A stretch of DNA of 64,000 bases from Paenibacillus tundrae. GTDB taxonomy: Bacteria; Bacillota; Bacilli; Paenibacillales; Paenibacillaceae. Location of the stretch: assembly GCF_036884255.1 (NCBI RefSeq), contig NZ_CP145605.1:1550001-1614000 (forward strand). The letters are read 5' to 3'. The notes below the pieces were generated by a model, which saw nothing but the letters and a program-made list of their open reading frames with translations, was not told the DNA's origin and did not search any database. Made by a program: the position numbers and the translations under genes. Positions 1,367-63,319 of the stretch are shown here, piece by piece (positions within the stretch are counted from its first letter, which is position 1; each line of letters begins with the position of its first letter).

Positions 1367-1795
1367 ATGACAGCTAATGACATCGATCAGCATCAAGGAC
1401 ACCCTATTGTGCTCGTGGACGGCGTATGCCATTTCTGCCAGGGCATTACCAAATGGATTATTAAGCGTGATCCAGAAGGCAAATATCATTTTGCATCACT
1501 GCAGTCCGATATTGCAAAGGAATTACTGCGGAAGGGTAATCTTTCGCCAGATCAGATGGATACATTTGTACTTATTGAAGACGGCGTTTATTATACGCGC
1601 TCTACAGCAGCGCTTCGTTTAGCCAAAGGTCTCAAGTTCCCATACCCCTTGTTATACGGGTTAATCATTGTTCCCAAATTCATACGTAATGCTGTATATA
1701 ATCTGGTTGCTCGCAATCGTTATAAGTGGTTTGGTAAGGATGAGGCTTGTATGTTGCCGACACCAGAGATCAAAGAACGTTTTTTAGAAATGTAG
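1367..1795 (+). CDS. DCC-family (DUF393) thiol-disulfide oxidoreductase-like protein
   Basis: 142 residues. The N-terminus carries the family signature DGVCHFC with D18, C21 and C24, followed by a thioredoxin-like arrangement (ITKWIIKRD, then FASLQSD) and a C-terminal hydrophobic helix LLYGLIIVPKFIRN. DCC proteins are named for these conserved D and C residues and are predicted to be thiol-disulfide oxidoreductases; a physiological substrate is not known. An upstream extension of the frame to 1247 has no ribosome binding site, whereas GAGGAGG lies six bases before ATG 1367, which sets the start. The last base of the stop codon is the first base of repeat copy 1. Confidence 0.8.
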   Translation: MTANDIDQHQGHPIVLVDGVCHFCQGITKWIIKRDPEGKYHFASLQSDIAKELLRKGNLSPDQMDTFVLIEDGVYYTRSTAALRLAKGLKFPYPLLYGLIIVPKFIRNAVYNLVARNRYKWFGKDEACMLPTPEIKERFLEM

Positions 1796-1998
1796 TTTAA
1801 AAAATTGCTTTTGATTACGAATGATGCCTCTGGGCTTCATCAGCATCCAATATGGAATTCAGCCGAAATAAGCGGGGTGCTTACGAAGCTTGTTTCCTTC
1901 GGAAACATGTAGTTGCTCACGTAGCTCTATCTACGCTCCGCTACTCCATTTCTAGTTTCACCCCATCTTCTCGGTACTGAAAACCAATTTTTTTAAAC
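1795..1998 (+). repeat. Dispersed inverted-terminal element, copy 1
   Basis: A 204-base element related to those at 21562-21731 and 62586-62790. Its ends, GTTTAAAAAATTG and CAATTTTTTTAAAC, are complementary apart from one extra T. Inside are the shared blocks TTTTGATTACGA, ATTCAGCCGAAAT, a GTTTCC-TTC-GGAAAC hairpin, a CGTAG-ctctat-CTACG hairpin, CTCCGCTACTCCATTTCTA and TCTTCTCGGTACTGAAAAC. It contains no open reading frame of its own. It fills the gap between the DCC gene and the lipoprotein gene and may serve as the terminator of the former. Confidence 0.85.
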
Positions 1999-7120: not shown

Positions 7121-7183
7121 GGGTTGAAACTTTTGATTACGAGGGCTGGCTGAACACGGACTACATGATAAGGAGTTGAAACG

Positions 7184-19511: not shown

Positions 19512-21554
19512 ATGACTGACAAGAACGAAGCGATTCAAAAGGACGAGAACACTACAATCGACAATCTGTCGATTACAACCGTACGTACTTTGGCGATTGA
19601 TGCAATTGAGAAGGCAAATTCCGGACACCCGGGAATGCCGATGGGCTCCGCTCCAATGGGGTACCAACTTTTTGCAAAAACGATGACTCATAACCCGAAC
19701 CACCCAACTTGGGTTAACCGGGACCGTTTTGTCCTGTCCGCAGGACATGGCTCCATGTTGCTGTACAGCTTGCTGCACTTGAGCGGCTACGACTTGCCAA
19801 TGGAAGAACTGAAACAGTTCCGCCAATGGGGAAGCAAAACACCGGGTCACCCGGAATTCGGACATACTGCTGGTGTTGACGCAACTACAGGCCCACTGGG
19901 TCAAGGTATTGCAATGGCAGTTGGTATGGCAATGGCTGAAGCACAATTGGGTGCAACATATAACAAAGAACAATTTAACGTTGTGGATCACTACACATAC
20001 GCAATCTGCGGTGATGGTGACTTGATGGAAGGCGTATCTCATGAATCAGCTTCCCTGGCTGGACGTTTGCACCTAGGTAAACTGATCATGTTGTTCGACT
20101 CCAACGACATCACTTTGGATGGTAAATTGGATCTGTCTTCTTCCGAAAGCATTGCGAAGCGTTTTGAAGCTTATGGCTGGCAAGTGCTGCGCGTTGAAGA
20201 TGGTAACGATCTGCCTGCAATCGAGAAAGCAATTCAAGAAGGTCAAGCAGACACACTGCGTCCTACATTGATTGAAGTGAAAACTGTTATTGGTTATGGT
20301 AGCCCGAACAAACAAGGTAAAGGCGGCCACGGCGGTACTCACGGATCTCCACTAGGTGCAGAAGAAGCTAAATTGACTAAAGAATATTATAAATGGGTTT
20401 ACGAAGAAAACTTCCACGTACCAGCTGAAGTTCGCGATCACTTTGCACAAGTGAAAGAGCGCGGTATCGCTGCAAACCAAGCATGGGATGAGAAGTTTGC
20501 TGAGTACAAAAAAGCATTCCCAGAGCTTGCTGCTCAATTCGAAACAGCGATCAACGGTGACCTTCCAGAAGGATGGGATCGTGATCTTCCTAAATATGCA
20601 GCAACAGACAAAGCGCTCTCCACTCGTGTAGCATCTGGTAACGCGCTGAACGGTCTGGCGCACAACGTGCCACAACTGACAGGCGGATCTGCTGACTTGG
20701 AAAGCTCCACGATGACTCACTTGAACAACCTGACTAACTTCACTCCTGAAGATTATGCAGGTCGCAACATTTACTTCGGTATCCGTGAATTCGGTATGGC
20801 TGGAGCAATGAACGGTATGGCTCTGCACAGCGGCGTAAAAGTATTCGGTGGTACGTTCTTCGTATTTACAGATTACCTTCGTCCAGCAGTTCGTCTGGCA
20901 GCACTGATGAACTTGCCAGTAACGTATGTCCTGACTCACGACAGTATCGCTGTTGGTGAAGATGGTCCTACGCACGAACCAATCGAGCAATTGGCTTCCC
21001 TGCGTATCATTCCTAACTTGACGGTAATCCGTCCAGCTGATGGTAATGAAACTTCTGCTGCATGGGCTTATGCGCTTGAGAATAAGAGCAACCCGGTTGC
21101 CCTTGTACTTACTCGTCAAAACTTGCCAATCTTGGAAGGAACAGTTGAAGGCTCACGTGAGAACGTTAAGCGCGGTGCTTATGTTGTTTCTGATGCAAAA
21201 GACGGTAAAGCAGTAGCACAAATCATCGCTACAGGTTCTGAAGTACAACTGGCTGTTAAAGCTCAAGCTGCACTTGCAGAGCAAGGCATCCAAGTTCGTG
21301 TAATCAGCATGCCAAGCTGGGATCTGTTCGAGAAACAGGACAAAGCTTACAAAGAATCCGTCCTGCTTCCAGACGTTAAAGCTCGTCTTGCAATCGAGAT
21401 GGCTCATCCAATGGGTTGGGAGAAATATGTTGGCGATCAAGGCGACATTCTCGGAATCAACACATTTGGTGCATCCGCGCCTGGCGACCGTGTTATCCAA
21501 GAGTATGGCTTCACCGTGGACAACGTTGTTAGCCGCGTAAAAGCATTGCTGTAA
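19512..21554 (+). CDS. tkt: Transketolase
   Basis: 680 residues, full length. The N-terminal thiamine diphosphate half has GHPGMPMG (written [12 protein letters not shown]), the [12 protein letters not shown] cofactor motif at about 166-178 with the metal-binding NDITLDG, and the [10 protein letters not shown] loop. The middle domain has [15 protein letters not shown] with the catalytic Glu, and [16 protein letters not shown]. The C-terminal domain closes the fold. It transfers two-carbon units in the pentose phosphate pathway. AGGAGG precedes the ATG. Codon use is strongly biased, as expected for a highly expressed gene. Repeat copy 2 starts seven bases after the stop. Confidence 0.95.
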
Positions 21555-21561
21555 TAGAGGT

Positions 21562-21731
21562 TGTTCAAAAAGTCTGCTTTTGATTACGAAGGATGCCTCA
21601 CGGCATCATCAGCGTCGAATATGGGATTCAGCCGAAATGTCCGTTGCTCACGTAGTTTTCTCCTACGCTCCGCTACTCCATTTCTAGCTTCATCCCATCT
21701 TCTCGGTACTGAAAACCTGACTTTTTGAACA
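21562..21731 (+). repeat. Dispersed inverted-terminal element, copy 2 (short form)
   Basis: 170 bases bounded by perfect inverted repeats TGTTCAAAAAGTC / GACTTTTTGAACA. Inside, GATGCC-tcac-GGCATC and CGTAG-ttttctc-CTACG hairpins and the ATGGGAT / ATCCCAT helix are intact. Relative to copies 1 and 3 it lacks about 35 bases, including the GTTTCC / GGAAAC hairpin. It starts seven bases after the tkt stop codon and ends in T-rich sequence, so it could terminate tkt transcription. Confidence 0.88.
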
Positions 21732-21888
21732 GGCATTTATAGCTTCATAAACGCTGCAATGGAGGGGATGAGCTCACCTGTGAGTTTTGTCCTGTCCGAG
21801 CAGCTAGTGATTTCCGCAGAGAAGGGTGGGTAACCACCCTGAACTGTTTTGCCTTTTGTTTTCATTAACTTCAGGGGAGCGGGTACGC

Positions 21889-46129: not shown

Positions 46130-46425
46130 GACCAAGGGTTCCGTATGCATTGGAGTTGCATGGTTATGTGTATTCATACCATGTACGCAAACGGATGAAA
46201 TAGGGAAGCTGGTGTAAATCCGGCACGGTCCCGCCACTGTGAATCAGGAATAATCCTGTAAGTCAGGTTACCTGCCCTGGACGTATAGACCGGTGTTCCT
46301 TCGAGGAAAGGACAGCGTTTCGGGCAGTGTTCTGTGTATGAACAGCGCAGGTGATTCATCATGCGTAGAGCACGCCATATGCGAGACGTTATCCCTGATC
46401 CTGTTGTAAGGATTGGGGATTTTTA
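46130..46425 (+). promoter_or_regulatory. Cobalamin riboswitch with terminator expression platform
   Basis: The conserved core is clear: GGGAAGCTGGTGTAAATCC at 46203-46221, CGCCACTGTGA at about 46232-46242, and the B12 box AGTCAGGTTACCTGCC at 46261-46276. P3-P6 arms surround them. Downstream, ATCCC.GATCC pairs with GGAT.GGGGAT followed by TTTT (46391-46424), a terminator that should form when adenosylcobalamin binds. The operon that follows encodes B12 uptake and assembly, so ligand excess shuts it off. Confidence 0.93.
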
Positions 46426-62434: not shown

Positions 62435-62585
62435 ATTCGTTACCGGATTCGTTCCGGAGCACCTCCCTAAATAGTATGTAGCTTATATTCAGTACCGAAA
62501 ATGTACACAGTCGGAATGTCATGTAGGTAGTGAGTTCATCCCGTCTTCGCATTACTAAGAACGAGGATTTCGTACTTTGAGAGGT

Positions 62586-62790
62586 TGTTCAAAAAGTCCA
62601 CTTTTGATTACGAGGGATGCCTGACGGCATCTCAGCGTCGAATATGGAATTCAGCTGAAATAAGTTGATGCTTACGAAGGTTGTTTCCCTAGGAAACAAT
62701 GTAGTTGCTCACGTAGTTTGCCTACGCTCCGCTACTCCATTTCTATCTTCATTCCATCTTCTCGGTACTGAAAACCGTCCTTTTAGAACA
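62586..62790 (+). repeat. Dispersed inverted-terminal element, copy 3
   Basis: 205 bases. The left end is TGTTCAAAAAGTC as in copy 2; the right end CTTTTAGAACA has one mismatch to it. It holds GATGCC-tgac-GGCATC, GTTTCC-cta-GGAAAC and CGTAG-tttgc-CTACG hairpins, and the ATGGAAT / ATTCCAT helix. Its right end overlaps the last codons and stop of the minus-strand gene at 62783. It fills most of the 348-base gap between two minus-strand genes. Confidence 0.85.
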
Positions 62791-63319
62791 CGTACTTTAA
62801 GTGTTTTCTGTATTGTTTAATGGTATTCAAAATCCACTCTAGCGTTTGTTCCGCATTGCTATCCTGCCCAACGATTGAGGCGAAGGAGAAGTTGGAATGA
62901 ATTAGTTTGTTTCTTGCTTTGAATACCTTGGTTAGTTCGTCATCGTCATTCTCTGCCCCGGGTTTCACAGCAATGTGTTGGCTTCTTAATTCTGCTTGAA
63001 GAATCTCGATATTTGATAAAGAGCGGTATGCAGGAGTTTTCATAAGTTGAACCGAATTGAATGTTTTTTGATAGGTTTGTTCATAGAGGCGAAGTAACCA
63101 TTGTTCAATGATGGAGCATAGTTCAATCGTCCATGAAGCATACTTTCGATCCTTACGATCATAAGTCAATCGATGGATCTCTTCCTCGTCCCATAGGTCA
63201 TGTTTCTTAAGCTGGCTTGAAATTCCCTTTTGCTGGAGCTGTTCATACTCCTGTTCAATCCATTTGATCTCATGCTTAGCTTCTTTTTTCAGTTTTTTGA
63301 AGTCTTGTTTGGTTAGCAT
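62783..63319 (-). CDS. HEPN-like protein of unknown function
   Basis: 178 residues, mostly helical, no family recognised with confidence. RNKLIH at 136-141 is an Rx4H motif of the kind that marks HEPN ribonucleases, placed at the end of a helix and preceded by KVFKA. The N-terminus is a charged coiled-coil-like helix (FKKLKKEAKHEIKWIEQEYE). A second helix pair WTIELCSIIEQWLLRLYEQTY fits the HEPN helical bundle. The stop codon and last two residues lie in the right arm of repeat copy 3, so the original C-terminus may have been changed. ATG follows GGGAGGC. No antitoxin-like gene is adjacent. Confidence 0.6.
   Translation of the reverse strand: MLTKQDFKKLKKEAKHEIKWIEQEYEQLQQKGISSQLKKHDLWDEEEIHRLTYDRKDRKYASWTIELCSIIEQWLLRLYEQTYQKTFNSVQLMKTPAYRSLSNIEILQAELRSQHIAVKPGAENDDDELTKVFKARNKLIHSNFSFASIVGQDSNAEQTLEWILNTIKQYRKHLKYVF

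Follow-up and report, generated by a model that had tools for sequence, protein, structure and literature searches.

The repeat present in three places in the window (the whole stretch of 64,000 nucleotides of Paenibacillus tundrae DNA that was analysed) is, judging by its sequence organization, a non-autonomous terminal-inverted-repeat element (MITE), since its copies have terminal inverted repeats (TIRs), AT-rich target duplications of 5 bp and empty orthologous sites. The interior of the element contains a covarying structure, and the folded strand is likely RNA. With moderate confidence, the feature is interpreted as a MITE with a 5-bp duplication, likely dependent on a transposase supplied in trans, that carries an opposite-strand covarying structure likely working as RNA. 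The first-pass annotation of this DNA had rejected random repeat DNA in favour of either a structured RNA or a mobile element of the hairpin type; both halves of this proposal appear to hold together and are not alternatives, the RNA half being likely.

All three copies were found where they had been noted (nhmmer matches at 1792-1998, 21556-21735, and 62580-62792), with the covarying fold on the minus strand in each case. Copy 1 (1792-2006, the right end being placed by eye) is a decayed long form that matches the covariance model R1 at 1804-1984 on the minus strand (E 3.9e-22). Its target duplication is not recognisable, and a DCC1-like ORF (1247-1795; Pfam) terminates in the left end of the copy, which provides the TAG stop codon (1793-1795). 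Copy 2 (21557-21736) is a short form (R1 match at 21573-21716, minus strand, E 1.3e-37) bordered by the duplications TAATA (21552-21556) and TTATA (21737-21741), which agree in four of five positions. Copy 3 (62581-62795), a long form (R1 match at 62597-62775, minus strand, E 1.7e-26), stands between TTTGA (62576-62580) and TTTAA (62796-62800). The sequence details reported for the copies were verified, namely, the terminal arms GTTTAAAAAATTG/CAATTTTTTTAAAC of copy 1 and TGTTCAAAAAGTC/GACTTTTTGAACA of copy 2, the inner helix ATGGGAT/ATCCCAT vs ATGGAAT/ATTCCAT, the shared blocks, and the CGTAG/CTACG stem, which is fixed and has a variable loop. Elsewhere in the window, the sequence CTTTTGATTACGAGGGCTGGCTGAACACGGACT at 7121-7170, between two ORFs, resembles both element ends joined together and is perhaps a short remnant; a cobalamin riboswitch is located at 46144-46293 on the plus strand.

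The designation "three-copy element" described real copies and gave too low a count. In the examined stretches of the window's genome, 75 distinct nhmmer matches were detected, of which 56 are nearly full-length and the remaining 19 partial; nine of the 75 share more than 40 nt with a simple ORF call. A BLASTN search with copy 2 yielded 49 matches in the same genome (6,534,616 bases), partial ones counted, some of them arranged in tandem approximately 183 bp apart. When up to two mismatches were allowed, the TIR word GTTGTTCAAAAAGTC was counted 153 times vs 25 times for its reversed control. Decayed forms were recognised by eye: in L207, L209, L211, L212, L214, and L216 of this genome the interior is mostly lost and both ends are kept, and L203, L208, and L218 are left-end fragments. 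Head-to-tail arrays with a spacing of approximately 145-185 bp were observed at loci L010, L018, L339, L347, L491, and L316; most of their units are separated by a duplication-like spacer, and the units of L316 (genome G398) have no TIRs. Paenibacillus xylanexedens, P. amylolyticus, P. taichungensis, P. tundrae, and P. pabuli are among the copy-bearing relatives in the matches listed. Seven loci listed by an 18-base pattern search for relatives belonged to unrelated organisms and were taken as chance matches.

The ends of the element were analyzed in 78 non-redundant full copies, retained after duplicate removal from 95 full-length nhmmer hits in the window's genome and its relatives. These copies start with GAGGTTGTTCAAAAAGTC (GAGGTTGTTCAAAAAG) and finish with CTTTTTGAACACGCAC, mismatches being present; their length is about 175 or 215 bp, and no transposase gene is found inside. 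The flanking 5-mers agree on average in 4.09 of five positions, compared with 2.88 for shuffled partners and a maximum of 3.24 in 2000 shuffles. Agreement extends to all five positions in 37 copies, to four in 23, and to fewer in 18, a few rows with a mis-set right end (e.g., L092 and L084) being retained in this count. The target duplication is thus 5 bp long and AT-rich, with the consensus TWWWA; TTATA, TTTAA, and TAATA are the most frequent left-side versions. Comparison of flanks among loci additionally revealed element-free sites, in which the gap is approximately minus five bases. From 28 pairs, six loci were judged clean by reading: L134/L116/L123/L153/L154; L078/L166/L044 vs L137; L109; L022; L112; and window copy 3. 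Comparisons with L054 and L196, as well as those of L153:1785 with L134/L123, were set aside as unclean. For copy 3, the empty site of P. tundrae locus L102 reads TTTCGTACTTTAAGTGTTTTC, with TTTAA at the site, and in the window TTTGA and TTTAA flank the element. As for the earlier term "hairpin-type mobile element", its mobile part is borne out by the duplications and empty sites. Hairpin-type elements of the IS200/HUH kind have neither TIRs nor a target duplication; since ordinary TIRs and a 5-bp duplication are both there, such an identity is ruled out.

The inner part of the element was analyzed for RNA structure. The consensus of 46 short copies folds with -69.3 kcal/mol on the minus strand vs -48.7 on the plus strand, and that of 28 long copies with -76.1 vs -59.7 kcal/mol (L161, L164, L174, and L175 excluded). 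For window copies 1, 2, and 3 the respective minus and plus strand values are -65.8/-50.8, -71.3/-58.9, and -66.5/-57.9 kcal/mol. Selection on pairing, as suggested by the first-pass annotation, is supported by covariation beyond the controls, but the fold sits on the strand opposite to the one used there. Neither of the outcomes that the annotation would have taken as a refutation arose: further copies are numerous, and covariation surpasses that of the controls, which leave the phylogeny unmodelled. Alignment A1 (35 copies, eight of them from more distant genomes, after L025 was dropped from 36 chosen rows) gives a 27-pair structure with 97.6% paired cells and double changes in 15 of 27 pairs (63 cells); slid controls were paired in 26.9-41.7%. 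None of 500 shuffles, which keep the relatedness of the copies, reached the structure on any of five measures, and chance is therefore excluded. In alignment A2 (40 matches, 38 of them distinct, fitted to the covariance model and hence biased towards it), double changes occur in 22 of 27 pairs, in 163 cells vs 49.4 after shuffling. Alignment A3 (31 sequences, to which matches from the phylum sample had been added) shows double changes in 12 of 16 pairs; the observed value was reached by 0/500 shuffles on four measures and by 5/500 on the number of pair types. The ratio of G-U to A-C at paired columns is 75:5 in A1 (20:5 with two mostly-G-U pairs omitted), 68:14 in A2, and 42:5 in A3. The covariation and G-U numbers are inflated, because the shuffles retain relatedness and the strand was picked by RNA energy before the G-U count. 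The internal loops are near-invariant across orders and are located between helices of highly different sequence.

The two lengths of the element result from one segment, located between ATTCAGCCGAAAT and GTTGCTCACGTAG, which is 4 nt long in 121 copies (GTCC in 106 of them) and 40-48 nt long in 64; intermediate lengths were not found, and for 10 of 195 copies this division failed. According to structure modelling, on the minus strand one side of an internal loop would be replaced by two hairpins, giving a putative four-way junction. Both forms occur at orthologous sites: 16 of 41 clusters of filled sites contain both, 19 only the short, and 6 only the long form. Since five clusters hold identical flanks only, 36 are informative, including all 16 mixed ones. 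The site of copy 2 is an example, being short in the window, L095, and L151 and long in L098 and L051. The 4-nt loop and the two-hairpin module of approximately 42 nt alternate with flanks unchanged, which points to gene conversion. Outside the module, the identity of 32 short/long orthologue pairs has a median of 0.971 (lowest 0.901), and that of 400 random short/long paralogue pairs a median of 0.897 (95th percentile 0.942). Origin of the short form by simple deletion was rejected, as GTCC is not a subset of the long module, and it is also disfavoured by the GTCC or TTCC short forms existing in distant relatives; the short loop is the form in most of the distant relatives read. Re-insertion was likewise rejected as the source of the difference, the flanks and locus-specific arms being common to both forms. 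Gene conversion between dispersed copies would fit these data best, and the exchange at orthologous sites may serve as a natural record of dispersed-repeat recombination. A long module is also found in a different subfamily (L178 of genome G019). In the distant copies L178:1287-1536 and L165:1428-1639 a second hairpin module was observed at another junction, and that of L178 has the potential to pair with the first module (GCTTCCGAAG with CTTCGGAAGC).

The distribution of the element extends beyond the genus. BLASTN with copy 2 matched 16 of 39 genomes, the own one included, three of which (G031, G035, and G038) belong to other families. A covariance model search of related genomes, the check proposed originally, gave R1 matches in 162 of 392 genomes of the order (19 of 49 genera). 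R1 also found matches in all 18 chosen carriers (at least 150 in G371, 66 in G147, and 49 in G258) and, in a sample of the phylum, in 10 of 398 genomes, of which four belong to the window's family and six do not. The model R2 matched 28 places in G516 and none in the three other genomes of the class of G516. In the window's class it matched 68 of 398 genomes and 31 of 145 genera, the E-values being rough; 24 of these genomes are of the window's family and 44 outside it. Among the latter, loci of genus g331 alone were inspected, and TIRs are visible in them (up to four of the loci had several core matches, of which the first was used). Copies of the clostridial genomes G516 and G737 have the ends GAGGWTGTTCGAAAAGTC...TTTTCGAACACTCAC and TTTAA-like flanks, and the element occurs there as an end-only form of approximately 41 bp, a core form of approximately 155 bp, and forms with large inserted hairpins. 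A palindrome, GGTGCC[AG]GGTGTTGAAAGTTG..CAACTTTCAACACC[TC]GGCACC, recurs within the clostridial copies L376, L386, L370, L392, and L398 (G737), as though another small repeat had inserted into the element. Loci L359, L361, L365, and L350 contain a related element type with the same core and ends such as GAAGCGCTTTCAGAAAC.

The conserved core, AGCGGAGYGUA..UACRUGAGCA, occurs both in distant Bacillota and in MITEs of Pseudomonas. A search of IMG/VR for AGCGGAGYGTA-N(4-14)-TACRTGAGCA, run as two patterns, found 21 and 5 contigs. One of these loci (L477) is of the Paenibacillus type. Another (L479, to which L478 and L480 are similar) has partial matches in 19 plasmid records, 18 of Pseudomonas and one of Halomonas; in two of the records the ends are GGTCTGTACG or GCTTTGTACG and the flanks CTAG/CTAG and CTAG/CTAA. 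Compared by motif and by eye, the Pseudomonas and Halomonas copies are different from the TWWWA element of Bacillota in their ends and in their duplication (CTAR). In 18 non-redundant copies from the other contigs, long helices of highly different sequence surround the same core. These formed alignment A4 (18 of 22 stretches, with L477, L478, L479, and L481 omitted), in which double changes affect 18 of the 23 pairs lying beyond the search motif and 0/500 shuffles reach the observed values, the structure being derived from the same alignment. In a model scan of 25 of the 26 viral loci (L473 omitted), matching over model positions 41-77 is in part circular, since the contigs were picked by that motif. 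The flanking proteins suggest, in our reading, mostly proteobacterial hosts for the A4 contigs. The cores of the two phyla may be either homologous or convergent. In the viral contigs L459, L467, L471, and L476 the core is located just beyond the 3' end of a conserved gene, on the opposite strand; the protein encoded by this gene ends like KPYVLFYTTKRVGGG..DYDAIKLLKF.

An RNA with a bound partner is preferred here because the element has near-invariant loops between helices that vary freely, a pattern that usually indicates recognition by shape and loop sequence. A DDE transposase supplied in trans would act on the TIRs, and read-through from neighbouring genes would transcribe the element copies. 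The folded transcript may bind a conserved partner, aiding spread of the element or its tolerance, and the structure would be kept in the family because of this benefit. A broader reading is tentative and rather doubtful: one structured RNA core, preserved in two phyla through compensating mutations and carried inside MITEs with different ends and duplications, would be required for their spread, with the peripheral helices exchanged like cassettes. What is kept across orders, and occurs with other ends in another phylum, is the internal fold with its near-invariant loops.

An unlikely explanation is that the structure acts as single-stranded DNA, folded in replication or transfer and recognised by its shape by a recombinase or transposase, in the manner of integron attC sites, in which a folded single strand is recognised by shape. 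The strand bias and loop conservation fit it equally well, and the hairpins adjoin the TIRs. Moreover, DNA parameters also favour the minus strand (-38.7 vs -34.5 for copy 2) and it was RNA energy that chose the strand, so these values do not separate RNA from single-stranded DNA. However, the ends and 5-bp duplications resemble double-strand transposition, and the same core lies within elements of unrelated ends, and thus is not tied to one end-recognition system.

It is improbable that the host retains every copy for a function in untranslated regions, e.g., in mRNA stability or termination. Copies are indeed located near genes, the median distances, from crude ORF calls, being 17 nt to the 3' end (67 sides) and 90 nt to the neighbouring 5' end (81 sides); copy 2, downstream of a transketolase ORF (end 21554), is of this 17 nt class of position. 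In locus L340 of genome G506, a T-box leader match (1360-1783, E 4.9e-22) spans a copy on the same strand, which therefore appears to sit within the leader. But the copies lie in nearly balanced orientations with respect to genes (32 vs 23 for co-directional neighbours), which does not point to a one-strand host function; empty sites are common in relatives, and truncations or internal deletions affect many copies.

Maintenance of pairing by mutation alone, in which palindrome arms correct each other via template switching without selection, is very improbable. This process should leave A-C and G-U mispairs equally, in contrast to the 42:5 ratio of A3, and would not hold unpaired internal loops near-invariant across orders. 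Signs that agree with it are the GTTTCC/GGAAAC tip loops, which exist in inverse-complement versions (TTC 36/GAA 1; TTT 7/AAA 1; GTA 2/TAC 2), and the terminal arms of copy 1, which are altered on both sides.

For the preferred MITE with a structured RNA, a transposase source was sought. Copies carrying a transposase, which the first-pass annotation had advised looking for, were not found in the loci examined. Derivation from Tn3, as a miniature element (TIME) mobilized by a Tn3-family transposase, is scarcely credible, even with a 5-bp AT-rich duplication and inner similarity over approximately 35-38 bp of the ends, as PF01526 has no matches in the window's genome (G000) and is present in 19 of 75 genomes of the genus, and in 30 Tn3 loci, many of which have GGGGT..TAAG ends instead, similarity to either TIR reached 0.61 at most. 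PF01609 had no matches in G000, G061, G371, G258, and G094. A partner of the IS4/IS5 type was also rejected, since 30 loci from five PF01609 carriers contained no TIR pair; one PF01609 locus (L402) has a single element end, its partner end being absent. Among 30 clostridial loci selected through their left TIR, the right end lies at most 351 nt away, with five exceptions (L373, L379, L383, L392, and the first copy of L366). By eye, L379 and L383 have a divergent right end, and the other three look truncated. In the extended stretches of L373, L383, and L392 (11.5-11.8 kb), no transposase was found in the ten ORFs scanned of 32. An exact right end 7 kb distant in L398 is part of another short element. 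Queries with 40-nt ends against plasmids found no autonomous partner with the same ends. The phage collection gave no matches for the Paenibacillus element and for L457, and one partial match for L479.

Among known systems, the element can be compared with RNAs of the Rfam type, to which it is similar as a structured RNA detectable by a covariance model. In Rfam 15 no match at the gathering score was found on any window copy, and in nine other copy-bearing loci nothing was found over the copies at E up to 5 or 1, with the exception of the T-box in L340. If the folded strand is RNA, it would represent a widespread family missing from these Rfam 15 scans, and it would be testable whether some MITEs need an RNA for movement or tolerance. 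Bacterial MITEs are mostly viewed as passive leftovers of insertion sequences. If the core is required for spread, such MITEs would be RNA-dependent mobile elements and not mere cut-down insertion sequences.

No description of the Paenibacillus element family was found in the literature searched. The BOX element of Streptococcus pneumoniae, as described in PMC3049150, is MITE-like, with TIRs, target duplications, more than 100 copies, a predicted structured transcript, and an internal module, boxB, of variable presence; it is almost limited to S. pneumoniae, S. mitis, and S. suis (PMC3049150). TIRs, duplications, a variable internal module, and a predicted fold are common to BOX and the Paenibacillus element. 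Unlike BOX in that description, the latter has a fold found across an order and a class, covariation, and an invariant core. bcr1 and related repeats are described as short, intergenic, present in tens of copies, TTTAT-linked, and partly located within mRNAs, and as limited to the Bacillus cereus group (PMC3446304, PMC6542083). They are short many-copy repeats like the Paenibacillus element, which is set apart from them by the bcr host range as reported in these sources. As a MITE, the element belongs to a known kind; its covarying interior core, shared across orders and combined with other ends in another phylum, makes it, to our knowledge, a new variant of that kind.
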